From NCBI GenBank assembly GCA_948567375.1, contig OX419761.1, positions 17,212,243-17,276,242 of the forward strand: 64,000 nucleotides of DNA, given 5' to 3'. The notes beneath the pieces are model-generated. The model was not told where the DNA came from. It was given only the letters and a program-made list of their open reading frames with translations, and made no database searches. The stretch is from Lunularia cruciata. Taxonomy: Eukaryota > Streptophyta > Marchantiopsida > Lunulariales > Lunulariaceae. Position 1 is the stretch's first letter, and each line of letters opens with the position of its first letter. Below, one piece after another: positions 13,046 to 35,529 of this stretch. Made by a program: the position numbers and the translations under genes.

Positions 13046-13576
13046 TGTCATAACATTTGTAGAGCCAAAATTAGTTTGCTCAAATGCTTGAGTGTTAGTC
13101 TTGGCAATCATAACTATACCAATTGTTGCTCAAAGATTACTTAGTGGCAATTAGATTTTATGTTAGGGCTATTGATCATATCATTTGAGCTATTTTTGCA
13201 TGGTCAAGTGGACCATCAGATGAGCTAGAGGTATTATTAGGGTTGGACTTCCAAGTTATTTTGGTCGTATACCTTGAAAAGTGCAGCTCCAAAGAGTTCA
13301 TTTATTGATGTTGAGCTTTTGAGCTCTTTGTTATGGTGGATAGAGGCCAACAAGTATCACTTGGAGTCTCTTAGATAGAGTGGGTGTAGCTTGATAATGT
13401 AATTAGAACCTATTGTTGGTAATATATTGAGTTGAATGTTGAGTTTCTGATCCAAATTGAGTTTATGATGAATTGATTATTATGGTACTTTAGAATTCAT
13501 GTATGACTTTCTATATGAGTTGTGCTTCTATAGTGTATGATGTTTTCAACAATGATATTGCATATATATATAAACA
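13046..13576 (+). repeat. Family D LTR (5' LTR of element D1)
   Basis: Begins TGTCATAACATTTGTAG and ends in CA. It consists of a 'B' part (about 13046-13465) and an 'A' part (GTACTTTAGAATTCATGTATG to TATATAAACA). The same B-A arrangement is at 35002-35512 (plus) and, reversed, inside the copies at 32974-34079 and 46642-49661. Termini were inferred from copy D2, where TGTCA...TGACA ends are flanked by a 4-bp target duplication. No clear primer-binding site follows directly; the nearest tRNA-Met-like match (TGGTATAGGAG) is about 46 bases downstream. Confidence 0.55.
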
Positions 13577-15810
13577 AAATTTATGTTTTTTCAATCCTTC
13601 TCGTTGTTCACAATTCCAAAATGGTATAGGAGATGTTTGCATGGCAATATCAAGACAAAGAAATAATAGGAAAATTGAGAGTAACACCACCCAAATGCAA
13701 GAAATCAATAGATTGTTGAGCAATAGAAGTAGTTGAAACTATGAAAAAACATTTGAGTCTTGAGTCCTTATACAATTTCCAATTCTAAGAGAGACATGGA
13801 GTATCAATCCTATTCCTTCTCCAATTGGTAGATTTTAGGAGCTTTTGAATATGGTTTTATTAGTATCTTCCACCACTCTCGTGAAGCTTGATGAGGACCA
13901 ATTCCAAATGATAGCTCACTATTATGCATAGATTATAGATTACTTGGAAGATTGTCATGATATTTGTAGTGCCAAAGCTAGTTTGCTCATATGTTGGAGT
14001 AGTAGTGTTGGCAATCATAGTTATTTTGGTAGTTGCTCATGGACTACTTGTTGGCGGCTAGATTTCATATTAGGCTTACTAATCACATGAGGAGACCCAT
14101 TGTTACTTGAAAAGTTTGCACCAACAGATGTGCTATCAATGGCACCATTAGGGATAGACCTAGGTCAAGCATAAGGGTATAATTTCAAAGTGTACCTCTA
14201 GAGAACTCACTACTTTGATGCTAATCCTTTGAGTTCTTAATTATGGTGGAAAAATACTAACAAGCATCACATAGAGTCTCTTAGTTAGAGTGGGTGTGGC
14301 TTGATTGTAATTAGTGCTTGATTATTGGTAAATTGTTGAGTGAAGGAACAAGTATGGATGTGATCTTAGTGTGATTAGAGTGGAAAAAAGAACTAATTAT
14401 ATCAAAGAAGTGAAAGTCAAATAGAAATTGGGTGCAAGAATTGAGAGCATTGATTGTATCTCCAAGCCTAGTTGATCATTGGTGCATTCAATTGTGGTCC
14501 TAGATTTCCTTGAGCGTGATTATGTACGGAAGCCTTGTTTGAGTTGATAGAGATTTGCTAGTGGGGCAGATGATGTGTGGAAGTACTGGCCAATTTTTTG
14601 AGAATTGAGTCAATTTGAAACAATGGATGTTTGATTTGGGTACAAGAGGTGAAATCAAGGTCAATTTGGTATGAACTAAGCATGAGTGCAAAATTGGAGG
14701 TGGATTTGAGAACCCATCTCCTCAGATTAGGAATATGGAGATCCTATCCTCTCAATTTGGCATGAGTTGATAATTAGCAAAGGATCTGGCAATTAGCCAA
14801 TTGTGGAGGAGGTGCATCAGATTTGAAAAGGTTGTCCAAATTTAGAGGTCAAGTTGGTAAAGGTTGTCTAGAGTTAGAGGTTGCTCAAATTGCCCTAACT
14901 AATGCTCAAGTGGATGAAGCTTGACCAGATTTGGAGAGGGTTCAAATTGGCAAGACAAAAGGCTTCATTTGGCTGCATTTCAAATTGGCAAGAAGAAAGA
15001 CCTCATTTGGATGAATTTTGGCATTCAGAGGCTTTGAGGGATTCTTCAAAGGCATAAAAGTGCCAACTTGTCAACATGAGGCTGGCTAGTTTAGATGAGC
15101 TTTTGATCATTATTTGGCAAAATCTATCCATCCTTCTAGATTGTGTGCGGTAGGGTTTAAACCTTAGATCTTTGGTTCCTAGATTGGTGCTTTAGCCAAT
15201 TTGTCAATCCTCACTTGTGTCTTGGTGAATGATTGACTGATATATGTACACATGTAGATTTGGCTAGGAGAGGCAATTTGATCCCATCCTTGGTGATCCT
15301 AGTAGCTTAGAAGTAAATAAACACTTCTTTTATCAAATGCCAAATGGTTACAAAGTTAGTCCGGTGTTCATTTATGAGACAAAGGGTTTTTGTTTTTATA
15401 CTTCTTGTGATTAGATCCCTTCCATTCTCTACTTCTTTTTTGTTCATCAAGTTTGTGTGAGTTGCCCTTACCTTAGAGTGTTGGTGCTTTAGTGTGCTCT
15501 TGATAGTGGAGCTAGAGTGTTGACAAATCAAACTGCCTATGTTTCTCTTTGGTGAGGCAAGAAGTGATGAGTTGTAGACCTTGAGAGTGCATGTTGTGAT
15601 GGCAAGTTATAGGTTGTCCTTTCTCCTAGTATAGTTGTCACAATTAGAGCTACATTAGTGAATAATGTTTAGTTGGTGGTGGCACTTGGTGGGATACTTA
15701 TGGTGGTTATGATTGCAGTTTGAGTTACAATATCACAATGGAGTTCTTTGGGGATTCTTGAGGATATATCAATATAGTATGCAATGGGTTTATACAAAGT
15801 GACACTTTGT
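13577..15810 (+). repeat. D1 leader with a second family D repeat unit (B-C)
   Basis: From 13953 (TGTCATGATATTTGTAG) a second B unit is followed by a roughly 0.7-kb 'C' stretch to about 15.1 kb. The same B-C order is found at 58395-59629 (plus) and at about 49661-48860 (minus). It is therefore a real, repeated module, either a longer LTR variant or the untranslated leader of family D. No protein is recognised until about 15.8 kb. The 390 bp between 13577 and 13952 is unassigned. Confidence 0.5.
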
Positions 15811-16397
15811 ATCTTGCTTTTATCTTAGGTCCCATTGACGGAGGAGATTGACTAAGATTTGGAGTTTGATATAGGAGTTGAGAGTGCACGTGGGGTGTGT
15901 GCACCGTTGTCGTGCGATATGGACAAGATTTATGGGGTCTCCAAAGGTCCTAAGTGCTACTCTAGTATAATGGGTACTATTGAGTTGGATGACTTCATCC
16001 AAAATTTTGGTAATTGATGTGATCTACAATAGATGCAGAACTTGACTTTGTTCATACCCAACATGGCATAAAAGAGGTTTTTCTAGCAGTTAGAGGGTTT
16101 GCCAATGGTTGACCATCAAGAGTTCAAGAGAGCTCACTTGGATGAGATCAAGCTATAGAGATAGTATTGGTCTCCAAACTATATCTCCATCACTTCATGC
16201 TTGGTTGCTAGGGGTAGATCGGCAATACTTACAAGTTCTAGCTCTAGTAGCATTGGTGTATCTAGTGGAGGTGCACTAATTGGAGATAGTATTATTACAA
16301 GTGGGAGTACTACTACAAGAGGTGGTGTAGTACCAAGGTTTAACTCCATGGTGGATTTCTTCCAACACTTGAGGTAGAACTACCAAGGAGTACGGAT

Positions 16398-17092
16398 TGT
16401 AACATTTATTTATGCATGCATGTGCTAAACTATTGTAAACTAAATATCACAATATTGCTATTGTGATATTTAGTTTGGTATTATAAGTACTTGAGATATA
16501 TTATTTATATAGAGATAAAGGATAGTTCTAGATTAGTCATGATTAGCTAAATTTATTCATAGCTAAAATAGAGGGAGCCCTACTTTAGAGGAAGTGGAAA
16601 AGATGAGCACCACTATTTTGAATTCTAGTGTGTTGACTTAGTATTATTCCTAGGTGTTTGGCTTTGAGGAAAGAATTGAGAACTCTTGGGGCCACAAGCC
16701 TTTTTGTTTTGGATTCTTCTCTAGTCCAAGGATAGCCCATGTGAAGGAATCCTTGACTTAGTAGTTGATTCAAGATAAGACCACATGCTTAGGAGAATAT
16801 TCTCTAAGCTTTTTGACTTTTAGCTTAGTAACTTGAGTTACTCCAGTAATTAGTAACTTTGATGCATAACTATTTCACAAGTATATAGAAACTAAGGGTG
16901 AGGAGGTACTCATCATCCTTTCATTTACAATTATCTCTCTCTAATTGAGTTCTCTAGTGAGCAATTTCTTGAGTCTTGCAGTGTTAGCCTTGGAGGAGTA
17001 TGATGGAGTTGGGGTTCTTTGCATTCTTACTCCATGGTGCACTACCATATAGCCATTAGAGGTTCATCCTAAGTGAGAGACAGGCCGGCTCA
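16398..17092 (+). repeat. LTR-like repeat E1 (probable solo LTR inside D1 gag)
   Basis: About 695 bp, starting TGTAACATTT and ending near GGCCGGCTCATA, highly similar to E2 at 18499-19184. Shared landmarks include TTATTTATATAGAGATAAA and the end GTGAGAGACAGGCC. E1 carries an 18-bp-arm hairpin (16437-16476) that E2 lacks. The flanking DNA is D1 gag on both sides, with no primer-binding site or polypurine tract, so I read E1 as a solo LTR. A clean target duplication was not found. Confidence 0.65.
16437..16476. repeat. Perfect 18-bp-arm hairpin within E1
   Basis: The arm AAACTAAATATCACAATA, a TTGC loop and an exact reverse-complement arm. The corresponding place in E2 has no such structure, so it arose or inserted after the copies diverged, or was lost from E2. 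Confidence 0.9.
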
Positions 17093-18498
17093 TAGGACTA
17101 AGAAGCTAAGGAGCTTGCAAGAGTTCTAACAAAAGGCTAGAGAGAGCCTACACAAGGCATATGCTTGCATGAGATGGCTAATCAATTTCACTCAAGGAGT
17201 TCTTGAGGCCCAAGTAGTCCAGTTTTGGTATGGGATCTTGGAAAAGGAGTTGCAACATAGAGTACATGATGCTATGTTGTTATAGACTACCTCACCTACT
17301 TTGGCACTAGTCTTTAGTTTGGCTGAGCATATGGAGCTCAATATGGTAGAGGAGAGAGTGGTGAAATTTGGATTTGGTAAGGAGACCTCATCTACAATTG
17401 TTACTTATTCTAAAGTGCAATAGAGTGCACCACACTATGTTGGCTTCCCAAGGCAGAGTAGACAACCCACATTTATGTAGCAAGTGGAAAGCCTAGTGCA
17501 GCTAGATCCTTACCTTCATTTTTGGGTCAACAACAACCAATAAGTAGTGGTGTTGCTCGTTGGACTTACGGTGGATCTCATCACAAGAGAGAATGCACTC
17601 AAGGTAGTGGAAATGATACCTTTTGTGCATCATAACCAACATAAAGACAATGTGACCATTGCCATAGATTTGGTCACACTAGAGACAAATGCTTTGACCT
17701 TCAATCGGAATTACGGAGTGGTTGGGTTGCTGTGGTAGGTGGTAAAGGAGCTCCAAATCATGGAAGACAAGGTGGTAGAGGAACCACACATGGTAGGGAT
17801 GAAATACTTACCCTTGCTTATGATACAACCATTGCTACTTAAATTGAGTAGTTGGAGTAGAGACTAGCTATCATGGCCATAACTTAGAGTAGATTAGATT
17901 TGGGTGCTAAGGCTTCCACTTCTTATGTTGGTGATAGAGACATCTTGGACTTTACCACACATGTAGATGCATATTTTGCAATGAATAGGAGTGTAAAACA
18001 TACTCTAGAGCCTAGAGAAGCATAAGTAGAGTTGGACCTACAAAGAAGAGAGATTGATAGACAAGTTAGACTTCCCTCGTCTTTCACATTCTTTGAGACA
18101 CTAAAGATGACATCCAAGGCTTCTAGATGTCATAGTGCAAGTGTGGTAGGTGGTGATGGAATGCATGATAGACTAGATGCTAGTTAACCAACTATTGCTA
18201 CACAAATTACTTCTAGCATGATGTTAGTGACAACTCAGTTGATTATGCACTCCCTTTTTTTTTCAGCCAATGACATGTTTACTTGGAAGTTGACCTAACT
18301 CTATTGTTTTGGTTGGCTACCACACTTTGTAAGAGTAAGGATGATGTGGTTCCTACTTCTAGAGTAGAGGTGGTTGATAATGGAGCTAACTTGGTTGAGG
18401 AGTATGGGATCCACTCAGCGACCAATGGTTTATTAAAAACATCAATAGTTAGGTTAGAGGAGTTACCAACTAGACTTACCTTTGAGCATGCATGGTTT

Positions 18499-19184
18499 TG
18501 TAACACCCATTTGTGCATGTGTGTAGTATTATGATATGTAGCTTAGTATTATAAATACTTGAGAGATATTATTTATATAGAGATAAAAGATGGTTCTACA
18601 TTGGTCATGATTAGCTAAAGTTAGTCATAGCTAAGATAGAGAGGACCTTACTTTAGAGGAAGTGGAAAAGATGAACACCACTATTTTGGATTCTAGTGTG
18701 TTGACTTGGTATTATTCCTAGGTGTTTGGCTTTGAGGAAAGAGTTGAGAACTCTTGGGCCCACAAGCCTTTTTGTTTTGAATTCTTCTCTAATCCAAGGA
18801 TGGTCCATGTGAAGGAATCGTTGACTTAGTAGTTGGGTCAAGATAAGACCACATGCTTAGTGGAATATGCCTATTTGGATGGATATTCCTTATATTTTTT
18901 GACTTTACTTGACTTTTAGCCTAGTTACTTGAGTTACTATGGTAAATAGTAACTTGGTACATAATTATTTCACAAGTATATAAACTAGGGGTGAGAAGGT
19001 ACTCATCATCCTTTCATTTGCAACTATCTCTCTCATTGAGTTCTCTAGTGAGCAATGTCTTGAGTCTTGGAGTGTTAGCCTTGGAGGTGTATGATGGAGT
19101 TGGGGTTCCTTGCATTCTTAGTCCATGGTGAGCTACCGCAATAGCCATCAGAGGTTCATCTTGAGTGAGAGACAGGCCATCTCA
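18499..19184 (+). repeat. LTR-like repeat E2 (probable solo LTR inside D1)
   Basis: Second copy of the E repeat: TGTAACACCC start and ...GGCCATCTCACA end. It interrupts the D1 polyprotein between LTFEHAW and a continuation starting with HAYL. The hexamer ATGCAT occurs on both sides (18488-18493 and 19187-19192), which may be a remnant of target duplication. Confidence 0.65.
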
Positions 19185-21263
19185 CAATGCATATTTATAG
19201 TTGTCCTATTGGATAACATGAGATGGATTTTCTATTTGGTGGGACCTTTAAGGAAGGTCCATAGACCACAAAGTCTCTTATTAGACTCTTGTGTGTAGCC
19301 CTTTATGTTGGGGAAGGCTATAGTTATTGATCTTGAGCTATGGAAGACTGATGTAGAGAGATATCCATTTAAATGTAGATATCTCTAGGGGGTGGTTCTA
19401 CACAATATATCACATGTAGAGAGTCATTGTCCAAATTCAGCTTGGATATTCAATTGATAGCTATGTGGTGAGAGCTCAAGCTATTGATAATAGTAATAGA
19501 GTCATATGATGTGCTAGTTGGTGGAGTAATGTTATACTCCATGGGTTCCATATTGACTATTAGGAGGAGATAGCCTCTTATAGACCAAGTTGGTAGTCAA
19601 GTGAGGGATGGGTATGTTACCTACTAGTATGCTTTAGTATTGGCAGTCTTGGCTTACTATAGTCAAGGACCATGGCATCAATTTCAACTTTCATTGGTTC
19701 TATTATTTGGCTTGGTGAATTATTGGAAGAGAATGCACATGTGGAGGATACTCCAATACCAAAGGAGATCACTTGGATTTGGAGTACAAGTGAGAATGTT
19801 CCATCTACCTTGGTTGTTCCATTATGGAGTTTTGAGGAAGCATTGCAGTAGCATGTGGATCAATTGGTGCAATAGGCTTGGAGTAGAGCCTTTGTACCAC
19901 TAGGAGACAAGTGCAAGGATGAGCTTCCAAATTCTATTACCTTATCACCTTTGGATACCACACTCATTGCTTGGCAATCTCTATTAGATGGAGTATGTTT
20001 ATTGGAGTTGTATGGTGAGATTAGCATTGGACTAGATACGGTACTATAGATAGGGATACAAGTACAAATGTACTTGTATGTGGAGCAAGATAAGATTGTT
20101 GGGCAAATCTCTCTACATCATGTGGTACAATTGACCTCTTGGTATCTTGAGTTATTATTGATGTTACTAATTAGGGGTTATTGGAAGACCCTACCAGTAG
20201 AAATTTCCTTATTGGGAGTGAAGTATTTGGAGAGATAAGGTCCAATTTATTTGATGATTTTTGGATGGCCATGTGAGGGACATTTCCATGTTGACCAAGG
20301 TCAAGGTCTATATAATCCCTATTTTGGTTAGTTTATTAGTTTTTTTTAGTTTCTCGACCTACATTTCAAAGAATATCCCTTTGATGGGTGATTTTTGTAC
20401 ATGGATGGCGACGACTACACATCAAGTGTATTCTTGGATGGGACTTGTTGTGTTGTTGAATGGAGCCAAAGTGGGATCACAAGCTCATCATCTTTGTTTT
20501 TGGTGGACAAACCTCTAATCTAAAGAGGTTCTACAATGTGCTTATGATTGGATTCAATGACTAGACCACCTTACTATTGATAATATTTTGAATGTTGGGC
20601 ACCAATTATAGACGGTGGTAGTGGCTAATAGGTCACCTATCACAATGATGAACCTTGTTGGATAGCCTAGAGTCGGTTTGCCCACACTTATGAATTTCCC
20701 AAGCTCCCATGCTTTTCAAAAGTGAGGTCTTGGACTTATTTGGGACTCACAATAACAATAGTTAGTGGAGCCCAATGTCAATAAGAAGGAGTGTACAATG
20801 GGTTTTCATACCAATAATATTGGTATGAAAACAAGTATTAGGCCAAGTGTTGGGTTAGGCATTAGGTCAAGCGTTAGGTGTTAGGTCAAGTTGTGGACCT
20901 AAATTTTTTGACTTGGATTGTGAGACTTGGCTTAGCAAAGTAGTGTTAGATGCGCTGGATAGGCATCACCACTTGGACACTTGTGAAATCTATACCTATC
21001 AAGACAATTCAAGCACATGTTGGGGCAATGGACCAAGTGGGCAAGGTATTCTTAGAACACAACTAGTGGCTACTAGTGATAGTGGTGAGAGTAATCTACT
21101 TGGAGTCCATCCAAGTGAACATGGTCTAATTGGGTTACATCCTTGGTCTACCCAGTATGTAGTTAGAAGACATCTAGAGCTTGCAGCCAAAGTAGAGAGA
21201 GTAGTTTTCTGCACTAAGATTAGGGACTCTAGTAGTTGGGAGCATGATAGTATTTCTCCCAAG
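19185..21263 (+). pseudogene. C5-cytosine DNA methyltransferase domain inside gypsy element D1
   Basis: Between the gag part and the RNase H part of D1 lies a decayed DNMT with its motifs in the normal order. Motif I is LLELYGEISIGLDTVL (about 20002-20049) and motif II YLYVEQD (about 20068-20090). Motif IV is GPIYLMIFGWPCEGHF, with the catalytic Cys codon TGT at 20272-20274. Motif VI is YISKNIPLMGD, where ENV of active enzymes has become KNI (AAG at 20369-20371). Motif VIII is AKVGSQAHHLCFWWTNL (to 20516), then MGFHTNNIG (about 20800-20826) and VLGQ (about 20840-20880). Motifs I and IV share one frame; VI and VIII are in another, and stops lie between, so the copy is dead. After motif X the frame leads into a stretch that normally precedes reverse transcriptase (LELAAKVERVVFCTKIRDSS), which LTR B1 then cuts. 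DNMT capture by retrotransposons is known from dinoflagellates and charophyte algae; methylating the element's own DNA is the suggested role. Confidence 0.8.
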
Positions 21264-21861
21264 TGTAATGTTCCAAGGATAAGAGAACTCCAAAGAGAAA
21301 CACAAGAGAAGAATCAAAAGGCTTCAGCCTTCAATACTCCAATGCCTCAAAGGAGCACCTTGCCTTTATTATATAGCAAAGAAGATCCCCTCAAAGGGAG
21401 CTCCACATTTGGATCAAATATATGGATTGGTGACATGTTAGCAAGCTCTACCTTTAGATTAGTTTCATGGATGGGTAATATGTCAATCCTTATCCTATAT
21501 AGTTGGTCAAACAAGTTTGATTGGAACTAATATTTAGGGAATCCTTTTATATGAAGCTCAAAATATCATGGGTGAGGTACCATTGCAAAGCTCTTGATGA
21601 AACGCACATGGGGAGGAGTAGGCAACATCTTTTATTCCAAAGGGGAGAATCCTTCAATTTTTGAGGTCTAACTCATCCGTTTGGACCTCCAAAGTTGGGT
21701 CTTAAGTTTTCAAGGTGTTTTTGACCTCTACTCTATTAGAGGAAGTACTCTTTTGGTGACAACTCTATTGATCTACTTAGACCTTCATATATAACATCCT
21801 TCCAAATATTACCAAGCTAATTTTCACCTTTAGATTAGTATGTCTAGCTAATAGTATTACA
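21264..21861 (-). repeat. 3' LTR of gypsy element B1
   Basis: Begins TGTAATGTTC and ends GTATTACA (plus strand), the reverse of the B-family LTR, 598 bp. A TATA-like TATATAATAAAG is present on the minus strand (near 21370). On the minus strand it is preceded by a polypurine tract AAAAGGGAGAAGG (21863-21877). It is inserted into element D1 just after the methyltransferase region. Confidence 0.8.
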
Positions 21862-21879
21862 AACCTTCTCCCTTTTAAG

Positions 21880-24800
21880 ATGCAATGTACTTATTGCAAT
21901 GTTGTTGCTCAAAAGATTGCACTAACATTGGTGCATGGGTCAAGTTAGCTATTTGCTCTCATGTTGCCTCATACAATGGGTACCCTTTCCAATGTAAGAG
22001 ATATTCCCTATGTGGATAGCAAGTACCACAGATGCATTTTTGGAGAATGCAATTGACTTCATATTCCTCCATGCCATCAATGAGTGTTGTACAAGGTCTT
22101 ACTTCTTGTATGGAAGGAAAGTGTGGCGGTCAGAGTGCATATTTTTGTAGTAAGGAAACATGGAACACTAGATGGATCTTCATGTGTGGTAGTAGCTCAA
22201 GGCAATAGGCCATTGTGCCAATTCAATGGAAGATGGGAAAAGGTCCAATGAAACAAGGTATGAGCTTACAAGGACCAACTAATATGAGGTTGGTTGTGGA
22301 CAACCAAACTTGATTGCAAACATTGAACTCCATGTACTTGGAATGTGCATCTATATATTGTTTTTGTCAATTTTGGGTGATTTGCAACTTGTGCTTGGTG
22401 TTCTCTACACCTTGTTGGATTCTAGAAACAAAGTGTTTAAAAAATCAACCTTTATAGCCATTGGGTGGATCTTTATCAAGATTGAAGGTGTCAAAGGTGC
22501 TCTCTATACATGAGGAAGGATGGTGTGATATGTATAGATGCATTCATTGAATTGTTGTAGGTAAATTCCAACAGTTGAAGTAAGGTGTCCCACCTTTCTT
22601 GCTCCTCTAAGGTGAAGCCTCGGAGCATGTCCTCAATAGTGTGATCAACCCACTTTGTTTGTCCCTTGGTTATGGATGGTATGCCATAGACATGGCTAGT
22701 TTGGGTTTGAAGATGCCAAAGAATGTTCTCCAAAAGAAACTAGTGAATTGAGTATCTTGTTCAATGATGAGCATTCAAGACAAGCTATGGCGAGAAAAGA
22801 CTATAGCTAAGTACAATTTAGCTAATTGTGAAATAGTCACATCATTGGTCATAGGACACACATGAATGATTTTGCTAAGTCAGTTTACAAAGATTACAAT
22901 GGAGTCAAACCTTGAGGTGATCTTGGGTAATTCACAAACTAGATCCATGTTGACCTATTCCCAACATTGTGTAGGAGTAGGGAGGGGTTGAAAGAGTATT
23001 GTGTGAGCCTAATTACAGGCTTTATTTTGTTGATAGAGTAGGCAACTTTGAACATACTCCATCACATCATTGCTCATCTTGGGCCAATAGTAATGGTATT
23101 CAATTGCATCTAAGGTCTTGTCCACTCCATACATGAGGTTTTTCTAGGATGGTGTTTCTTAGGTCTAGGGCATCCGGGATCCATAACTTACCATCATAAA
23201 AAGTGATCCTTGAGTACTAGTTATGCCTTTTGATGATTGAGCTCCTACAATCTATGGGTCAGTCTTTGTAGTAGTAAGAATCCTAGGCCAAAATTTTAAG
23301 TTCATCTTGACCTCTACCACTAGATTTTTCTCCATAAACATTCAAGTGAATGCTTTTGCAAGTTGCTTCTTATTTTCAACATATATGATCTCATGTTGAA
23401 CTATCATCTCCACTCTGCCCACCAAATCTGCTTATGAGATAGATCTTTTTGTGTCTTGAGGTAGACTAGAGGTTTGTGGTCTATCTCCACTACAAATGCG
23501 TTCTTGCCAAGATAGTACTTCCAATGTTTGGTTACAAGAACAATGTCCAAATCTTCTCATTTGGTGGTATGATAGTTGTGCTCTATTAGTAATAACTTTC
23601 AAGAGAAATATGCAATTGGGTGTCATCCATCATTCCATTCTTGTTGTAAGACTTCTTCTATTGCAATGTTTAATGCATCTATGGCCAGCTTGATTGGACA
23701 TTTTGGGTTATACCATTTCAAGATTAGTGCATGTAATAATGCATCTTTCAATACTTGAAAGAAAAATTCTTGTATTGTTCTTCACACTCACTTCTTCCAC
23801 TTGCCAAGTAGTGCCATTAGAGGTTGTGTAACCTTGGAGAAGTCCTTGAAAAATCAATGATAGAACCCCATCAATGCCAAGAAACTCTTGAGTTGAGTTT
23901 GATCTTTTGGAGCATCTCATTTCTAAATGACCTTTATCTTTATCTGTTAACACTTAGATACCTTTTTCACTTACTCTATGCCCCAAGTAGTTTACTTTAG
24001 ACTTGCCAAACTCACACTTTGAGATTTTGGTATACAACTAATTCTATCATAAAATCTGGAGGACTTCTCATAGATGTTGCTTGTGCTCTATCATCATCTT
24101 ATTGTAAACTAAGATGTCATCAAAGAAAATGGAAACAAATTTATCCAAGTATGGATGAAATATGTCTTTCATCAAACTCATGAAAGTGGTTTGTGTGTTG
24201 GTGAGGCCAAATGGCATCATTAGTACTCAAAGTGACCATACCTTGTTCAAAATTCAGTTTTGTATATGTCTTCTTTCACAATCCTAATTTGGTTAGAACC
24301 GCTCTATAGATCAAGTTTGATGAAGTGTTTTGCCTCATTGAGTTGATCAAACATGTCATCCATGCAAGATACTGGGTATTTTTTCTTCATCGTTTGTTGA
24401 GTTAGGCCTTAGTAGTCAACGTACATACACACTATATTGTCCTTCTTCTTCAAAAATAAGATAGGAACTCCATATGATGATATATTGGGTTGGATAAACT
24501 CTTTTTTTAGCATGTCCTTAATTTGAATTTTACACTCTTCTAACTCATGAGATGATAGTCAATATGGGGTCTTACAAGGAGACATCTTCACAAAAAGTAT
24601 CTTGATTTTATCATCTATTCTCCTTTTTGGTAGTAATCCTAAGGGTAAATCATCTGAAAAGACATCTTAAAACCAATTGACCACACCTTTCAAATTCTCA
24701 AGAATTTATCCATAAAGTTGTGCACTCTAGACTTCTCTTATTAGATCCATGAAACATCTATTTGTCTTATCAATAGTTGTTGTTCTTATGATATAGACAG

Positions 24801-25520
24801 GTAATTCTTGCCTTCATGATTTTTCTTGAATCCCAATGATCTTCCATTGGTTATTTCTCACTACTTTCTTTCTCCAATCAACCATGGGGTTGTAGTGCTT
24901 CATCCATGGCATACCTAAGATCACATCATAATGAGCTAACCATATCACTTGCCACTCAATTTCTTCTTGATACTCTCCTATAGAGAGTGTTATCTTTCTA
25001 GGTAATGACTCAATCCTATATGTATGACCATTAGGTAACTCTACTTCTTTATTCTCATCCGTCTCTAGTTCCATCTCTAACCTTATTGCAATAGAGTGAA
25101 ACAAGAAATTCTTTGTTGCTCCAAGGTCTATCAATACTTTCAATTGATTGCCTTTTAGGACTCCATTTACAACATTTAGTTGTGTTTTTCTTCCTCAACC
25201 TTTGCAAAATTGTCCTCTTCTTCTCTTATCCATTGAGCCAATAAGGCCATAAGGTACATTTATTGGTGATCTTCATTTTTTGATGTGATTTAAGCATCTT
25301 CCTCTTCAATTTGTCTCTCTATGTTGTTCAAAGGTTGCTTGTATAGAGATAAAGGGCCTTTAGGAAGACAAGCATGACACTTGATGGCTATGTACCTAAC
25401 TTTGCTACAATTTTAACAACATTGTTGATCTACTTGAGCACATTCCCTTTGTGGAACTCCATCTCTCCTTTCTTTGATCCATCCTTGTTCTCCTTGGAGC
25501 GGTTGTGCTCCTTGATCTTG
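21880..25520 (-). pseudogene. Ty3/gypsy element B1: gag end, protease, RT, RNase H, integrase, chromodomain
   Basis: Read from high to low coordinates: a CCHC knuckle remnant (CSKVRYIAIKCHA, about 25380-25430); protease VLIDLGATKNFL with ILGMPWM (24814-25143); reverse transcriptase (about 24000-24660); RNase H (about 23400-23960); integrase (about 22300-23200) with GQTKWVDHTIEDMLR; and a chromodomain, EEYEVNCILQKC and YLLHWKGYPLYEAT (about 21945-22085). The protease has DLG where DSG is usual, and the integrase has Lys where the catalytic Glu should be (GQTE in active enzymes). Many stops and frameshifts. The 5' end is cut off at 25520, exactly where the LTR of B2 starts, so B2 probably inserted into B1. 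Confidence 0.75.
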
Positions 25521-26132
25521 TGTAATACCATAGCTAGACACATGATCTAGAGATGAAATTTGATTTGGTAACATCTAGGAGGATGTTATACATGATGGAA
25601 TAATTAGATCAGACAGAGGTATCATTGAAAGAGAACTTCTACTAATAGGATAGAAACCAAAATAGGCATGAAAACTTCAAAAGCAATTTAGGATACTTAA
25701 ATGGATGAGTTAGGCCTCAAAAATGTGCACATCCTCCCCAACAAAGGAATGGCTGGCTTTCCTTCCCTTGTGGTTTTTCTTGCGGAGAGCTTTCCAATGG
25801 TACCTCACCCACATGATTTTGAGATTCCTACAAAAAGATTCCTTAAAAGATTCCCTTGGGTCAAAGCTTATTTGACCAACCAGATAGGACCAAGACCAAC
25901 ATGTCACCCATCTAAGCAAGTAATCTAAGGGTGGAGCTTGCTGACATATCACTTATCTATGTACCTAATCCTATGGTGGAGCTTCCTTGGAGGAGATCTT
26001 CCTTGGCTACATAATAAAGAGAAGGTGCTCCTTTGGGGCATTGGAGGATTGAGTGTGAAATCTGTGTTTTCTCTATGGAAGAGTTCTCTTGTCCTCAAAG
26101 TATTAGATTTCTCTTGTACTTAGAGTATTACA
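25521..26132 (+). repeat. 5' LTR of gypsy element B2
   Basis: 612 bp with perfect 8-bp inverted ends, TGTAATAC...GTATTACA. It contains a TATA-like ACATAATAAAGAG (about 26008) ahead of a probable transcript start. It aligns along its length with the truncated 3' LTR at 31277-31738, with LTR B1, the solo LTR at 47746-48327 and the 3' LTR of B3. Confidence 0.9.
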
Positions 26133-26133
26133 G

Positions 26134-26145
26134 TGGTACTAGAGC
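26134..26145 (+). other. Primer-binding site of B2 (initiator tRNA-Met type)
   Basis: TGGTACTAGAGC one base after the LTR. The usual plant initiator tRNA-Met site is TGGTATCAGAGC; two adjacent bases are exchanged. Confidence 0.75.
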
Positions 26146-26269
26146 AAGTGTTTTAATCCAAGAGAGTGGATCACCCTTCTTGGAAGAGCACGAGCTACTG
26201 AAATTGAGTAATTTGAGGTGGAGAACATAGTGCAATTGCTAGACTTAGGAAAGGCTTTAGAGAGCAGAT

Positions 26270-27835
26270 AGGATGGATGCACCAAGAGGAAAATTTCCCA
26301 CACTTAGCTTCCCATTCTTGAATCCATTCCACATCAAGATTATGTCCATCCAACGTGAGCAAATGAGAGTATTGATAGTTTGTCACTTTGGAGCAGAATC
26401 CATGGATAGAGTGATGAATTCACCAAACCCGGTGATTCTACTTGTGGTAGTATATGACATAGGGGGATTTTAAAATCTACATTCTATTATGATGTTATGG
26501 ATCTGAATATACCGAATCCTCACACCTTTCAACAAGCAAGTAGAAATCCGTTATGTTGCTAGACCAAAAGTAATGTTTAGGGATTTGTAGTCCACAATTT
26601 TGGTGAGGAATATTATCAACAAGTGATGGCCTCTAAGGTCCCAATGGTAGTCCCCATAGTTTGTGAACCCTCTTGAGTGATCATTCTAACCTTTTATTGA
26701 AGTAGGAAGTAGCAATCAATTGTGTGTAGAAATCATGGATCTGCAATTGTAAGAGTTGATGCAAGGAATGCAAGGGATGTTGAACGAGTTTCAAGAAATC
26801 AAGATGACCATGGAAGCATTACCAAATCAAGTACAAACCCTTAGGAATGATTAAAAAATGCAGGAAGGGGAACCATCTCAAAGCCCACTACCTACAATTG
26901 ACGTACTTGGAAAGCCACCCGTGCCTGTGACATTGAACCTGACCAATGATGAAGCCACATTGTTATTACAAATGAAGAAGACCTGCAATATCAAGCCTCA
27001 CAAGGAGCAGCGTGCTATAGGAGTAGTGGAGAATTAGATCTTGAGAATGAATTGATACTTCTGATTGTTTTTTGATGGAGATCACTGAGTATGCCATAGG
27101 TGTGTTTGCATGTGGGTACCTAACTGATAAATCCCTCACATGGTATGATGCTTGGGAACTATCAATGTTGGTAGTAAGAAGGGAGGTCATGTGGATAGCA
27201 ATGCAAGAAGGACTTTTGAAGAATTTCCAATCTGTAGATTAAGTGCAAATGGCCCAAATTTGACTTTGGCGATTGAAACAAAAGATCAGCATACAAGAGT
27301 ACGTGGAAGCATTTCTGGATCTACAAGTTGCAATAACCAACATGAGTCTAGCAAAGGCTCTAGACAATTTCAAACGAGGGTTGAAGGACCGGATTTGCCA
27401 AGAAGTCATGGTACAAAATCCTTGCATTGTATTTGAAGCCATTGCTTGTGGTCAGAGAATAGCAAGGGCACGTGGAGGAGGTGAAGGAGTAGTTCTATCT
27501 CAACACTATTGGGCAAAAATGCCACACATGGGTGGACCCACACCTATGGAATTGGGCAACCTATGGTTTCAAGATAGAGGAGCACAACCGTTTCAAGAAG
27601 AGCGGAAGCAAGTGGAAAAACAAAGAGATGGAGTCCTATGAGGAGAAGGAATTCAAGGAGAACATCACCGTTGTTACAATTGTGGCCGTATTCGGCACAT
27701 CTCCATCAACTGTCATGCTCGTCTTCCTAGGGGCCCTTGGTCTCCATACGGATAATCTATGAATAACATGGAGCAACGCATTGAGGAAGAAGAGGTAGAA
27801 ATCACCTTGGAAAATGAAGATTGCCAATAAAGGTA
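26270..27835 (+). pseudogene. gag of gypsy element B2
   Basis: Degraded gag. MEITEYAIGVFACGYLTDKS is at about 27075, then a capsid-like stretch at 27273-27641 (SIQEYVEAFLDLQVAITNMS, LKDRICQEVMVQ, PTPMELG). An intact CCHC zinc knuckle, CYNCGRIRHISINCHA, lies at about 27670-27720 in another frame, followed by an acidic linker. At least one frameshift separates capsid and knuckle, and several stops occur. B2 is otherwise the most complete element in the window. Confidence 0.7.
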
Positions 27836-30800
27836 CCTTGCGGCCTTACTGGCTCAATAGGGAAGTGGACAAGTGAGGAGAGGAAGAAGATGAGTGCACA
27901 AAGATCTAGAAAGGAAAACTCACAATTGATTGTTGTGAATGGAGTCCTAGAAGGCAATCAAGTGAGAGTATTGATAGATCTTGGAGCAACAAAGAATTTC
28001 TTATCTTGGTCTGTTACAATAAAATTGGGGATGGATCTAGAGAAGGTTGAGAGCAAAGAAGTAGAGTTACCTAATAGGCAAATAGAGAAGGTTGAGCTGT
28101 TATCCAAAAGGATAACACTTGTTGTAGGAGAATATCAAGAAGCAATTGAGTGGCATGTGATATAATTTGCTTGTTATGATGCAATCTTGGGCATACCTTG
28201 GATGGAGCAATATAACCCTATGGTAGATTGGAGGAAGAAAATAGCGAGCATACACCAATAGATGATCATTGGGGTTAGAGAAAAAGCACATAAGCAAAAA
28301 TTGCCTCTCTATGTCACAAGAACAACAATTATCTATAAGAAAAATAGATGTTTCATGGGTTTAATAAGAGAAGTCTAGAGTGTAAAACTCAATGGACAAA
28401 TTCTTGAGAAATTGAAGGATGTGGTAAATGAGTTTGAAGATGTCTTCCTAGATGATCTACACTTAGGATTATGACCAAAAAGGAGAGTAGATCATAAAAT
28501 TGAGATACTTCCGGGGAAGGCACCTCCTTGTAAGGCCCCATATTGTGTATCACCTCAAGAGTTAGAGGAGTGTAAGGCTCAAATTGTGGATATGCTACAA
28601 AAGGGGGTTTTCCAACCCAACATATCACCACACCGGGCTCCTATCTTATTTGTGAAGAAGCAGGACATTACAATGCACATGTGCATTGACTATCAGGGCC
28701 TCATTGAGCAAACTATGAAGAATAAATATTCTTTACCCTGCATAGACAACCTATTTGATCAACTCAATGGAGCAAGACACTTCACCAAACTAGACTTGTG
28801 GAGTGGTTACAATCAAATCTAGATTATAGAGGATGATGTATACAAAACTGCCTTTCAAACCAAGTATGGCCACTTTGAGTACCTTGTGATGCCATTTAGC
28901 CTCACCAATGCACCTATCACTTTCATGAGTTTGATGAATGACATATTTTGGCCATATTTGGATAAGTCTATTATCATTTTCCTAGATGATATCTTAGTAT
29001 ATAGTAGGACACAAATAGCATCTAAGAGAAGTCCTCCAGATTCTAAAATAGAATCACGTGTATGCCAAAATCTCAAAGTGTGAGTTTGGCAAGTCTGAAG
29101 TAGACTAGTTAGGGCATAGAGTAAGTACAAGAGGGTATCTAAGTATTAAAAAATAAAATAGAGGTCATTCAAAAATGGAGCTCTCTAGAAGATCAAACTC
29201 AACAAGAGCTTCTTGGGGTTGACGAGGTTCTATCATTAGTTTGTCAAGGACTTCTCCAAGGTACCACAACCTTTAACAACACTACTTAGCAAGGGGAAGA
29301 AGTGGACCTGGGAAACCACACAAGAATACGCCTTTCAAGAATAAAAAAACGCCTTGCTACATGCACCAATCTTGAAATAATATGACCCAAAATGTCCAAT
29401 CAAATTGGCTATCAATGCATCAAGCATAGCAATATGGGAAATCTTACAACAAGAGTGTCATGATGGGTGGCATCCAATTGTATACTTCTCTCAAAAACTA
29501 TTACTAGCAAATCGTAATTATCACACCCTACAACAAAAAGAGTTGGTCATTGTCCTTGCAACCAAGCATTGGAGGCACTATCTTGGCAAGAAGGCATTTG
29601 TAGTGGAGACAAACCATAAACCTCTTGTCTACCTTGAGACAAAAAAAGATCTATCTTGTTGCCAGATTTGGTAGGTAGAGTGGCAACAACAATTCAACAT
29701 GACAATCATCTACATGGAAAGCAAGAAGGAACTTGTAGATGCATTCACCAAAATGCCAATGGTAAACAATTTGGTGGCAAAGGTCAAGATGAACCTTGAA
29801 TTTTGGCCAAAGATTCTACTTGCTACAAAAACAGATCCCCAAATTGTAGGAGCTTAATCATCCAAAGGCATTACCAACAACCAATGACTCTCTTTTTGTG
29901 ATGGTAAATTATGGATCCTGAATGCCCCAGAATTACGCACCATCATCTTGGCAAAATGTCATGATTCTGCCATTGTAGATCATGTCAAAGTGGACAAGAC
30001 CTTGGATGCAGTCCAATGCCATTACTATTGGCCCAAGATGAGCAACAATGTGATGGAATATGTTCGAAGTTGCCTACTTTTTCAACATAACAAAGCCTCT
30101 AATCAAGCTCTTGCATGACTCTTGCAACCACTCCCTACTCCTACGCAATTTTGGAAACAGGTGAGTATAGATCTAGTCTATGAATTGCCCAAGACCACCT
30201 TAGGGTTTGACTCCATTGTAGTATTTGTTGACCAACTCAATAAAATGATTCATGTACGCCTGACCACCAAGGAGATGATGACTCTATAACTAGCTTAGTT
30301 GCACTTAAATGTAGTCTTCTCTCACCAAGGCTTGTCTTGAGTGCTCATCACCAATAGAGGCACTCAATAGTCTGTTTTGGAGAACACTCTTTGGTGTCTT
30401 CAAAACCAAATTGGCCATGTCCATGGCTTACCATCCATAGACCAATGGCCAAACAAAGTGGGCTAATTGCACTTTTGAAGATATGCTTTGGTGAGCATGA
30501 GACATTCACCTTAGATGAGCAAGAGAGGTGGGACACTTTACTTCCATTGGTAGAATTCGACTACAACAATTTAATAAATACTTCCACCCAAGTCACACCA
30601 TTCTTCCTCATGTATGGCAAGCATCCTTTCACACCTTTGAGCTTGATGAAGATCCATCCTAAGATCCATCCTATGACTACCAAGGTTGATGCTATCAAGT
30701 CTTTTGTTTTGAGAATCCAACAAGGCGTAGAGAATGAAAAAAATAGGTTGCATATTACCAAAAATTGATAGAAGCAATATGCCAATGCATATCATAGGCA

Positions 30801-31260
30801 CATGGAGTTCCAAGTGGGAGATAAGGTTTGGCTATCAACAACCAACCTCACATTAGTTGGGCCTTGCTAGCTTAGACCTCACTTTATTGGGCCTTTTCCC
30901 ATTCTTCATCGAACCGGTGTTGTGGCCTATCATCTCCAACTATCACTACACATGAAAATCCATCCAATGTTCCATGTCTCCCTCCTATGCAGATATGCAC
31001 ACCAATCAGACCATTGTCCCTCCATACAAGACATTTGACCTTGCTCAACACTCATTGATGGCATGGAGGAATACAAATTTGAACGTATTCTCCAAAAATG
31101 CATCTGTGGGACTTGTCATCCACGTGTGGAATACCTCATACAATGGAAAGGTTACCCATTGTATGAAGCAACATGGGAGCCAACAGCCAACAGCCAACTT
31201 GACACACACACCAATGTTAGTAAAATCTTGTGAGCAGCAGCTTTGCAATGAGGACGTTGC
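27836..31260 (+). pseudogene. pol of gypsy element B2: protease, RT, RNase H, integrase, chromodomain
   Basis: Domains in order: protease VLIDLGATKNFLSWS and ILGIPWM (27930-28215); reverse transcriptase about 28490-29070 with [21 protein letters not shown] and the catalytic FLDDILVYS; RNase H about 29380-29680 (INASSIAIWEIL, TNHKPLVYLE); integrase about 29930-30770 with SIDLVYELPKTT, then ITNRGTQ (Asp to Asn) and NGQTKWANCTFEDML (Glu to Lys); a GPY/F-like module to FHVSLLC; and a chromodomain at about 31056-31190 (EEYKFERILQK, YLIQWKGYPLYEATWEP). It thus belongs to the chromovirus branch. About a dozen stops replace Gln, Arg or Trp codons. Two of the three integrase catalytic residues are changed, so it cannot move by itself. 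Confidence 0.8.
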
Positions 31261-31265
31261 GTCCT

Positions 31266-31276
31266 AAAAGGAGGGA
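31266..31276 (+). other. Polypurine tract of B2
   Basis: AAAAGGAGGGA directly before the TG of the 3' LTR, the expected primer for plus-strand DNA synthesis. Confidence 0.75.
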
Positions 31277-31738
31277 TGCATACCAATAGTTAGACATATG
31301 ATCTACAGATGAAATTTGGTTTGGTAACATTTGGGAGGATGTTATACATGATGGACTAAGTAGATCAGATAGAGGTATCACCAAAAGAGAACTTCTACTA
31401 ATAAGGCAAAAACCAAAATAGGCCTAAAAACTTTAGAGGCAATTTCAGAGGCCTAAAGGGATGAATTAGGCCTAGAAAATGTACAGATCACTCCCCCCCC
31501 CCTGTCAAATGGTTGGCCTTTTCCTATTTTGTTTCACCAAGAGCTTTCCAATGGTACTTCACCCATGTGATTTTGAGATTCCTACAGGAAGACTCATTAA
31601 AAGATTCCCTCTAGTCAGAGCCTATTTGACCAACCAGATAGGACCATGACCGACATGTCACCCATCCAAGCAAGTAATACAAGGGTGGAGCTTGCTGGCA
31701 AGTCACCTATCCATGTACCTAATCTTACGGTGGAGTTT
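31277..31738 (+). repeat. 3' LTR of B2, truncated
   Basis: Starts TGCATACCAATAGTTAGAC and matches the 5' LTR until TCTTACGGTGGAG (about 462 of 612 bp), then changes abruptly to D1 RNase H coding sequence. A C10-11 run lies at about 31492. The lost LTR end and the missing D1 reverse transcriptase suggest one deletion covering both. Confidence 0.8.
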
Positions 31739-32973
31739 CAATCCTTGAAAGCTTAGAAGCTTACTCTTCAATGATAGAAGTTTTCCAACCCAATGAATAC
31801 TTGCACCCAAGGAGAGTGCTTGGCAGCAATATTAACAATAACACATTTCCAATGTTACCTATTTAGTAATCCCTTCACTCTTATCATTGATCATCAACCA
31901 TTGAATTGGTTGATGGAATCCAAAAAGCTTTCAAGGAAGCTTGCATGATGGGCTCTGATTTTATAAGAGTATAATTTCATGGTTATTCATAGACCGTGAG
32001 TGGTGAACCGTGATGTAGATAGGTTGAGTAGAAGCTTATGTCCTAGCTAGTAGGATCAAATTGGAGCATGTTGGCATAATGAGACAAATGAGGAGAATTG
32101 GCATGCATCTACCTTTCTATGTATATTTTTTGAGGTCTTAGTGGTATAACTCTAGCACATACAAGAGGAATTGTTGAAGTCATAGATATAGAGGGTGGAG
32201 ATATTGGTATAGAATAGCAAGACATTCATGGTGATGGATTATCTTTGCACTAGTGTTGTGGGTGGCACAATTGGTGCCAAGGAGAGAGACCATGATCTTT
32301 AGCAAGCCAAGCGGTTTAGATTCAAGGGCAAACACCTTCTTTGTGTATGAGAGGATGGTAGAGTGCAAGTAGTACCACTTCCATCTAAGAGACTACAATT
32401 GGTATCTCATGCTCACAAATAGCTAGGAAATTTTGGAGTAAAGCATACATATAGCTTACCATAGAGTCATTATTGATGATGTGGTATGTAAACTAATGTA
32501 CAAAAGTTTATTGCAAGATATGTGGTTTATGATTGAGTTAGAGCATCATTTAATGCTCATATGCCTTAGTCACACCCATTACCTATCATGGTTATCATTA
32601 AAGTTTGGACTTTATTGGACCTTTATAGTTGACTGTGAGGCATTATTAGTATGTTTTGGTTATGGTGGAGCACTTTTCAAAGTGGATTGAGTTGGTGGCA
32701 CTTCTTGACAAATCCAATGAAGGGATGGTTTACTCATCCTTGGATTGGGTTATTAGTCATTTTGGTACACTAGCTAAGGTTTTGACTGATTAGAGTATAG
32801 AGTTCTTGGGGGAGTTTTAGGTCTTGTTTGACAAAGCCTTGATTGAACATCATACTATCTTCCAAGATCACCTTGAGGTAGATGGCTTAGTAGAGAGAGT
32901 GGTTTAGATGGTGAAAAAGAGGATTACATAGTATAGTTTGCAAAGAAGCCGCTTGGGAGATTGGGATCTCCAA
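31739..32973 (+). pseudogene. RNase H and integrase (first part) of element D1
   Basis: Resumes the D1 polyprotein downstream of B1/B2. RNase H: IIDHQPLNWLMESKKLSRKL, then HRP..VNRDVDRLSR (31880-32045). Integrase: zinc-binding region around 32420-32560 (GVKHTYSLP, NVQKFIARYVV). The core lies at 32580-32960, with EHFSKW (D-region degraded), VLTD.SIEFLG (second Asp) and EVDGLVERVV (catalytic Glu kept), then KRRIT and RLGDWDLQ. Stops such as W-to-stop and Q-to-stop are frequent. The reverse transcriptase that should precede it is absent. The frame is interrupted at 32973 by the inverted D2 insertion and resumes at 34080. Confidence 0.7.
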
Positions 32974-34079
32974 TGTCATGTGTATATACATCACTACACA
33001 ACATATATTATTGTCAACATCATAGACTACAAAAGCACAACTCACACATAAGTCATACATGAACTCTAAAGTGCCACAATAATCAGTTCTTCTTCAGTTC
33101 AAATCACACTCAAACAGATTAGTACTTGATCGTTCACTCAACACTTTGCCAACAATCAAGTATTGATATAGTCAAACCATATCCGCTCTAGCTAAGAGAC
33201 TCCAAGTGATGCTTGTTGGCCTTTGTCCATCATAGCCAAGAACTCCAAGGCTCAACATTAGAGAAGTGAGCTCTTTGGAGCTACACTTTGAAGGTATACT
33301 CTAATACCCTAGATCTCTATCCCTAACAATGTCACTAATTGTGCAAATGGTGCACATGATAGTGGATCCCACCATGTGATAAATAGTCCTAACATGAAAT
33401 TGGACCATCAACAAGTAGTCTATGAGTACCAAAATACCTATGATTACCAACACATACCACTCCAACATCCAAGCAAACTAACCTCGGCATTACAAATATG
33501 GTGACAATTGTTGTGCATATATACATTGCTACACAACATACATCATTTTCAACATCATACACTATAGAAGCACAACTCACACATAAGTCATACATGAACT
33601 CTAAAGTGCCATAATTGCCCTTCCTAGCTAACAGTTAAGTCACTCTAACTCTAGATAGCCACCAACTCCAAGTATGTGGTAGACACCATGGTGGGCAAAG
33701 ATGAAGAGGTTGGGTGCTATCAAGCCCCATTGTTAGTTGACTATCTAAAATCTATACCATATAATGGGTGAAATAGCTACATGTCAAGTATGTTGAGGAC
33801 ATAGCCATTGTCCTTAAAGAACCATCATGAGGGCCATATACCATCCTATCAAATGTGCCATATACCATCCTATCAAACAACTATCACACACTAACATAGT
33901 AGCAATTCTACCAGAAGAGCCGCTTAACTTACACAACAAGCCTTTTTGTACAAGTGCCAAGCTTAGGTCCATAGTACCATCAATTTTTGGGAGGTGGCAT
34001 GGTGCACAATTGTGGTATATGTTATGTTACCACTCCAATATCCGAGCAAACTAGCCTTGGTGCTACAAATGTGGTGACA
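32974..34079 (-). mobile_element. D2: 1.1-kb deletion derivative of family D
   Basis: Inserted in reverse inside the D1 integrase. It has TGTCA...TGACA ends and is flanked by CCAA on both sides (32970-32973 and 34080-34083). Removing it restores the integrase reading seen in copy D3 (GATCTCCAATTACCTTGG). Minus-strand contents: about 64 bp of the B head, a large internal deletion, the integrase/PHD end (about 33990-33820), a 3' untranslated stretch, then A-B-A including the 3' LTR. It codes for nothing intact but keeps both ends, as a non-autonomous derivative would. Confidence 0.75.
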
Positions 34080-34740
34080 CCAATTACCTTGGTTGGCTAT
34101 GGGCTATCAATTCAATTGGCAAGCCTTCTTAGCATCCTTATATTCTTAATTTATACTCCATGGATGAAATCTAGACTTACATGCAGCCTTTCATTATGAT
34201 ACTATTATAGTTTTGGACTTAGGTGATCCAGATGTATGGTTGAGTGCATGTACTTAACGGGCAAAGATACTTTGGAGAGAGATGTTGATGGCCATGGAGA
34301 ACTTAACAATTGCTCACCATGGGGTACCTTACATTATGCCACTATTCAAGGAGGAGCTTATAGACCCTCAATTAGTTGATTTCATCCAAGTGACTATGTA
34401 TATCTACAACAAATGGCACCAATGACACTTGATATTACTATAAGTTGCATTATCTTGAGAATACATGGGTTTTTTTGGAGTCTTCTTGTTGGAAAGACAT
34501 GATGGACTTGTTTGGAAGGATCATGTGCACAATTGTATGCCATGCCACCTCCCAAACATTGATGGCACTTGTATGTGCAAGCTTGCGGTGTATGTTTTGT
34601 GGCTCTCTGCTGGAGCTACTATTATGTTAGTGTGCAATAGTTGTTTGAGAGGATGGCATATGGTATGTTTGCCTCCTCTCCTAATGTGGTTCCTCAAGGA
34701 TAGTTGTTATGTCCTAGATGTACTTGACCTATGACTACTT
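34080..34740 (+). pseudogene. Integrase C-terminus with PHD finger of element D1
   Basis: Continuation of the D1 integrase after D2: ITLVGYGLSIQLASLLSILI, the DLGDPDVWLSAC-type segment (about 34210), a YVYLQQ-like stretch with stops, LEGHDGLVWKDHV and CHLPNIDGT (about 34490-34570). Then comes a PHD-type zinc finger, RCMFCGS, one frameshift, IMLVCNSCLRGWHMVCLPP (about 34590-34690), with its last Cys pair degraded. PHD fingers read histone H3 tails. Chromoviruses usually carry a chromodomain at this place, so here a different chromatin reader seems to do the job of target choice. A second copy of this finger is in D3 (47520-47690, minus) and its edge in D2. Confidence 0.7.
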
Positions 34741-34896
34741 CATCCTTTAGGTGGTATAGATTGCAAACAAGCAATTAACAATGGAGCTTGATAGCACCCG
34801 GCCTCATGATCTTTGCACACTATAGGGCATATCACATACTTAGAGTAGATGTCTATCTAGGGTTAGAGGAACCTAACTACCAACTAGGGAGGCAAT

Positions 34897-35512: not shown

Positions 35513-35529
35513 ACATCACTCATATGCAA

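Follow-up and report, generated by a model that had tools for sequence, protein, structure and literature searches.

Retroelements with a cytosine-5 DNA methyltransferase (DNMT) of their own are already known from dinoflagellates and Klebsormidium nitens (de Mendoza et al. 2018, PMC5890265), and the available part of another source states their occurrence in streptophytes and dinoflagellates (PMC12344493). The initial annotation of the DNA studied here, according to which DNMT capture had been reported from dinoflagellates and charophyte algae, agrees with both. As described in the available part of the former report, KnitGypsy-Dnmt3 of K. nitens is a DNMT3 within a Gypsy LTR element, and its enzyme displayed no activity in yeast, a result that the authors call inconclusive; for SymbioDIRS-Dnmt3, de novo CG activity was demonstrated in yeast (PMC5890265). 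No report of DNMT retrotransposons in bryophytes was found in the literature searched, most subscription papers being outside its reach. The genome of the liverwort Lunularia cruciata is 580-Mb, almost double that of studied relatives, which is ascribed to Ty3/gypsy bursts in the available part of PMC9985172.

The stretch analyzed here (the window; 64,000 nucleotides, contig C11:17212243-17276242 of the 566-Mb assembly in 74 contigs that was searched) contains a dead element that spans about 13953-35515 and belongs to a high-copy Ty3/gypsy family equipped with a cytosine methyltransferase of the DNMT3 type. Since L013, a long-open-frame copy, aligned with the window in five consecutive blocks (15077-16399, 17095-18486, 19200-21263, 31811-32972, and 34080-34830), these were taken as one old, disrupted element. 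On the plus strand, it begins with a decayed region comprising repeat A1 (13953-14363, about 70% identical), the leader, and the start of gag (13953-16399), which was delimited using blastn with pieces of L014 and L013. A nested solo-LTR-like insert (16400-17094, plus strand) bounded by TG..CA and foreign to the element follows; it appears as a gap in the L013 alignment and is 85% identical to a second plus-strand TG..CA insert of the same kind at 18487-19199, likewise foreign to the element. Between them lies decayed gag (17095-18486, plus strand; 11 in-register stops in 460 codons) with its zinc knuckles at 17558-17713. The direct repeats at 16459-17092 and 18527-19184 were considered as the LTRs of the element and rejected, as they sit in these inserts within the coding region. 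The element picks up again at 19200 with a decayed protease-like region (19200-19575, plus strand), whose homologous counterparts in the relatives P0014 and P0060 are matched by Pfam profiles of aspartyl proteases, and continues with the decayed DNMT domain (19987-20949, plus strand) and a tail of ORF1 (20950-21263, plus strand, placed by the L013 alignment) that is broken off shortly before the DNMT/RT junction. The initial annotation had delimited the DNMT feature at 19185-21263: the left boundary falls near the end of the nested insert, while 21263 is a true break in the element. It had also left the segments 5' of motif I and 3' of motif X without a known domain, an impression that did not hold, as the former consists of the protease plus a linker and the latter is the tail leading to the stop before RT.

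The block at 21264-31810 is foreign nested material, which includes a minus-strand element with its protease at 24814-25194 and another Ty3 element on the plus strand, represented by gag, protease, and RNase H (27264-29671). The RNase H at 29381-29671, which had been cited as a flanking domain of the DNMT, gave no alignment to L013 and was rejected as part of the element, while the gag with knuckles cited along with it does belong there. The proposed same-strand RNase H/integrase exists elsewhere, as the RNase H end and integrase of the element itself were located on the plus strand at 31811-32972 (decayed; 23 in-register stops in 383 codons) and 34080-34830. Inserted at 32974-34012 is a minus-strand 3' end from the same family, with part of the integrase/PHD region, A, and B. 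The integrase C-terminus, PHD finger, repeat B1, and part of repeat A2 then follow (34080-35394, plus strand), and repeat B2 (35409-35515, plus strand) forms the 3' end. No RT part of the element was found in the window, except for a weak 34-bp match on the opposite strand. Other family sequence occurs in the surroundings: the end of a repeat A followed by a partial repeat B just 5' of the element (13279-13544), perhaps a remnant of another copy; a minus-strand piece with A and B repeats (46643-49664), about 85% identical at 47366-47747 and 48330-48769; and a 5' end of the family (58395-59613, plus strand). Within the foreign block, inverted arms that are 84-88% complementary (21331-21381 with 26002-26052, and 21533-21594 with 25786-25847) enclose the minus-strand element to which the protease at 24814-25194 belongs.

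The window DNMT is recognizable and clearly defunct. A codon-register reading placed motifs I, II, IV, VI, VIII, IX, and X in order across 19987-20949 with the PC dipeptide of motif IV kept, as annotated, and 178 of 309 readable residues are the same as in a relative. The same reading revealed 13 stops in these 309 codons, and neither the glutamate of motif VI nor the arginines of motif VIII remain. Over 19200-21263, which is 75.9% identical to L013 DNA, we counted 16 indels, of which 12 shift the frame; the 671 codons include 20 in-register stops, 12 of them corresponding to a change of CAG to TAG. Relative to L013, there are 262 C>T plus G>A changes vs 56 in the reverse direction and 119 transversions, and changes affect 46% of CG, 43% of CHG, and 16% of CHH sites. 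Such decay, mainly C-to-T at CG and CHG, is the scar that host CG/CHG methylation would be expected to leave. Because of the stops, the frameshifts, and this mutational scar, we regard the window copy as dead and silenced for a long time. A genome-wide search with PF00145 yielded 123 scored matches among 2161 candidates, in open frames of up to 1428 aa and mostly on one stretch of the profile (about 48-120). No window match is among those listed; elsewhere in the genome the profile does detect the family, with ORF1 of copy L010 matching above the curated cut-off (E=3.4e-7).

The anatomy of the family was deduced from long-open-frame copies, in which the order is A-gag-zinc knuckles-protease-DNMT-UAG-RT-RNase H-integrase-PHD-B-A-B. 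Gag, protease (called by homology to P0014 and P0060), and DNMT share one frame at several loci, and ORF1 of L010 comprises 1330 aa when measured from its likely start codon. Pfam searches with ORF2 of L013 identified RT, RNase H, the zinc-binding and core (rve) domains of integrase, and a PHD finger; RT, RNase H, and rve integrase thus lie downstream of gag, knuckles, and protease, in Ty3/gypsy order. The proposal that the DNMT resides inside a Ty3/gypsy element was therefore borne out, since these copies hold it between protease and RT within terminal repeats, and not outside any LTR element, as a refutation would have required. DNMT/RT junctions were recognizable at 2490 genome sites at up to two mismatches, with 0 sites for a control pattern. 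Among 55 PDB sequences, the best matches of the DNMT were DNMT3A chains (E 1e-19), with the motifs unrearranged, and DRM2 matched only across a part. Judged by motif order and nearest structures, the enzyme carried by the element is assigned to the DNMT3 type, an assignment made at the level of sequence.

The ends of the element are unusual. Instead of two equal LTRs at its extremes, it has split repeats, with A at the 5' end and B-A-B at the 3' end. In all eight copies with flanks, repeat B (102-110 bp) borders the 3' repeat A (about 450 bp) on both sides. The 5' repeat A is full length in six of these eight copies and represented by a 77-bp piece in L010; in L021 none was found. The full A pairs are 97.3-99.1% identical in five copies and 88-89% identical in L013. 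The element ends are TGT..ACA, and 4-bp target duplications, read by eye, accompany six of the seven copies with both ends (L014, L010, L011, L017, L018, and L020); none was seen by eye in L013, the other copy with both ends present. The split repeats resemble the DIRS arrangement, yet insertion leaves these 4-bp duplications. DIRS/Ngaro elements use a tyrosine recombinase and are not known to produce target duplications, and membership in that group was rejected on the basis of the rve integrase and the duplications in 6/7 copies. As for single loci, the 3' flank of L018 (L040, 1542-3042) contains a tandemly repeated 3' end with a 752-bp stretch at 94% and extra A and B units, and in L027 (C8, about 22294712) a 6-bp hairpin, TCTGAT-TAC-ATCAGA, straddles the junction of A1 with the internal region, where a primer-binding site is expected.

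The two frames are separated by a conserved stop. The DNMT/RT junction is TAG in all 16 fetched copies, with ORF2 continuing in the same frame; long frames were the criterion for picking these copies, and only some of them have a frame that is open all the way to the TAG. Across the genome, the junction pattern with any codon allowed at the stop gave 775 exact sites, and with TAG fixed it gave 756. The six bases 3' of the TAG are CAG-CCA in 13 copies, CAG-CTA in two, and CAG-CTT in one, so that 15 of the 16 fit the context CAR-YYA, which is described as essential after UAG for readthrough in tobacco mosaic virus in the available part of PMC2754532. At the protein level only, similar ends 75-129 residues past the DNMT are found in Marchantia P0001 and P0002 and in P0003, P0013-P0021, and P0023. 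The DNMT runs on into pol domains in the Marchantia models P0004, P0005, P0009, P0011, and P0012 and the Sphagnum model P0026, and since these six gene models join the two, a stop before RT is not established for every relative. Splicing, the annotation itself, or absence of the stop could each underlie these joined models.

Of 7999 candidates scored in a search with the DNMT region, 55 proteins were returned; 14 of these come from Marchantia polymorpha (61-75% identity) and one from Sphagnum fallax (49%). No K. nitens sequence is among the relatives returned, and of 18 pattern matches in viral contigs, none was confirmed. Three domain orders were distinguished: gag-PR-DNMT before RT (order I), RT-RNH-DNMT-IN-PHD (order II), and DNMT-RT-RNH-IN-PHD (order III); P0060 holds PR-DNMT-RT within one ORF. 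In a DNMT tree of 76 rows, of the kind that the initial annotation had suggested building, the 36 retroelement DNMTs sampled all group in a single clade (100/100), separate from plant DNMT3 (99/97), animal DNMT3, and the others. The kinship of this clade with plant DNMT3 received 81/84, and the animal DNMT3 alternative was likewise tenable (p-AU of 0.33). In both the DNMT and the RT tree, order II and order III each make up a single clade, as does order I when the row from this genome is included, and P0060 adjoins order I in the DNMT (97/84), RT (82/66), and integrase (99/97) trees; order II was not recovered as a single clade in the integrase tree. The host DNMT3 gene of L. cruciata is located at L041 (C7:31984500-31994400), and its best matches are DNMT3b of Marchantia paleacea and M. 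polymorpha (57%) and a Riccia fluitans protein (55%), as fits a liverwort host; PF11926 (DUF3444) follows the catalytic domain in its relatives from bryophytes and ferns. One metagenome protein with a Ty3-type RT/integrase, P0065, is also annotated with SET (PF00856) and chromo (PF00385) domains from precomputed data, which may be a case of histone methyltransferase capture.

The catalytic cysteine, the Glu-Asn of motif VI, and two arginines of motif VIII are invariant in eight diverse retroelement DNMTs, and the proline preceding the cysteine is missing in three of these (P0051, P0043, and P0049). Compared with Marchantia P0001, the DNMT is 75% identical, gag 73, the knuckles 65, and the protease 61, and the DNMT is the best-kept ORF1 domain relative to both P0001 and P0002. 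Within this genome, it is not the most constrained domain among the recent copies picked for open frames: pooled dN/dS over pairs of the 16 copies, rough values given this sample, was 0.48 for DNMT, 0.19 for gag, 0.30 for PR, 0.29 for RT, and 0.43 for IN. In L010, L013, and L014, CG o/e is 0.41-0.52 and CHG o/e 1.09-1.26; the respective values in the decayed window pieces (15077-32972) are 0.10-0.18 and 0.16-0.23. At C- or T-ending codons of long-open-frame copies, C is found in 7-9% of cases before G vs 41-45% in CHH, and in 26-34% in CHG. CHG shows no depletion overall or at G-ending codons and a moderate one at C-ending codons of ORF1. These CG-poor, CHG-retaining copies fit an active lineage marked at CG. 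A Ty3 fragment without DNMT, L025, is also CG-poor (6/40 vs 41/76 in CHH), and given this control, albeit small, we set aside the mutational scar as proof of self-methylation; CG depletion with little CHG loss is possibly a general mark of active elements in this genome.

Plants use DNA-methylating enzymes to silence retroelements, and because cytosine methylation has this effect, it is paradoxical for an element to keep a methyltransferase under selection. The likeliest use of the DNMT would be CG methylation of the element's cDNA, following the proposal of de Mendoza et al. As the DNMT lies upstream of the stop, it is predicted to be made together with Gag and protease and in larger amounts than RT. 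We cautiously favor a model in which ribosomes would mostly terminate at the UAG and so yield Gag-PR-DNMT in bulk, with occasional readthrough adding RT-RNH-IN-PHD. The protease would release the DNMT inside the particle, where it would methylate CG in double-stranded element cDNA prior to or upon integration; a new copy would thereby reach chromatin premarked like resident DNA; the PHD finger borne by the integrase may help in site choice. Later CG and CHG methylation by the host would silence the copies and lead to their decay. Dosage through a gag-side DNMT does not seem to be generally needed, because orders II and III hold the DNMT in the RT polyprotein, and it also speaks against the model that the window copy was apparently itself methylated and silenced.

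Other accounts of the stop and of the enzyme were weighed. The UAG might be the ordinary end of ORF1, with ORF2 expressed via splicing, reinitiation, or a second RNA, as could be argued from the Marchantia gene models that join DNMT and RT, possibly spliced, and from Candida Tca2, whose in-frame gag stop was, according to the tests covered by the available part of PMC2194720, not overcome by simple readthrough; with ORF2 continuing unbroken in the same frame and CAR-YYA fitting 15/16 copies, we hold this to be unlikely. It is rather improbable, in our judgment, that the DNMT limits the expression of its own element, or targets the host or competing elements, and has been retained since moderate transposition spares the host. 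Its conservation among relatives would suit such a role, and a host benefit was raised by de Mendoza et al. themselves in the part of their report available (PMC5890265), but restraint is not evident, because the family occupies thousands of sites and A repeats are 97.3-99.1% identical in five of the eight flanked copies. That the protein has RNA instead of DNA as its target, or serves the particle by binding nucleic acids, appears distinctly improbable for an enzyme of the DNMT3 type with catalytic Cys, Glu-Asn, and Arg invariant in the eight aligned sequences, even if it is produced beside gag and zinc knuckles and P0051, P0043, and P0049 have lost the proline of the PC motif while retaining the cysteine.

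Regarding its origin, a single DNMT3 capture followed by shifts of the gene within the polyprotein would be the simplest reading. Several independent captures by Ty3 elements could also have given the three gene positions, and the varying place of the DNMT, together with the different positions of order III in the DNMT and RT trees, points in that direction; we nevertheless consider such a course of events unlikely, given the one DNMT clade at 100/100 and the fact that a DNMT tree constrained to unite II and III, in the manner of the RT tree, could not be rejected (p-AU 0.39), in a sample with only seven DNMT-free RTs and no K. nitens sequence in the trees. As to chance motifs or a host DNMT pseudogene next to unrelated repeats, the window copy is indeed full of stops and has no PF00145 match among those listed, but its 75.9% contiguous identity across 2.1 kb to copies with long gag-PR-DNMT frames, the 2490 junction sites vs 0 in the control, and the distance of the retroelement DNMT from host DNMT3 in the tree make the probability of this explanation close to nil, and it was rejected. 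The single-capture reading may be extended to a wider scenario, to which we attach appreciably less than even confidence: one ancient DNMT3 capture would have founded a split-repeat Ty3-like lineage that spread through bryophytes and metagenome hosts, with the DNMT moving to three places in the polyprotein, and readthrough in bryophytes would yield the de novo methyltransferase at Gag dosage, loading it into each particle, which would deliver CG-premethylated cDNA via the PHD-integrase.

The position of the DNMT before a conserved stop in a readthrough context provides a concrete hypothesis, as it predicts both dosage and particle packaging, and since Marchantia, a laboratory plant, has relatives of the family, what a DNMT does for the element carrying it could be studied in that plant. 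The L. cruciata genome may in addition owe part of its present form to this family. With respect to the literature searched, the following appear to be new: (i) the high-copy presence of such elements in land plants, (ii) the several positions of the DNMT in the polyprotein, and (iii) a gag-side DNMT before a conserved stop in a readthrough context. In SIRE1 and MuLV-type elements, as covered by the available part of PMC2194720, an in-frame stop likewise splits the polyprotein, but in the liverwort element the part on the gag side includes a captured enzyme. The metagenome polyproteins P0027-P0061 share the liverwort DNMT clade and, mostly, the PHD end, but have the DNMT after RNase H (order II) or, in one ORF, before RT (order III, P0060). 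The remaining comparisons refer to the available description in PMC5890265. SymbioDIRS-Dnmt3 of Symbiodinium is, like the liverwort element, a DNMT3 in a split-repeat retroelement, and differs by a tyrosine recombinase in place of the DDE integrase. KnitGypsy-Dnmt3 and the liverwort element have in common an intronless DNMT3-type gene inside the Gypsy coding region and a DIRS-like repeat arrangement combined with Gypsy domains. They differ in that the former has its DNMT in the Pol ORF and occurs in K. nitens in fewer copies than are found in Symbiodinium, whereas the latter has its DNMT with gag and protease before an in-frame UAG and is present in a land-plant host with thousands of junction sites. 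Because of this different ORF placement, and as the two were compared by description only, we did not file the liverwort element as KnitGypsy-Dnmt3; it nonetheless appears, on that comparison, to work like KnitGypsy-Dnmt3, its closest known system.
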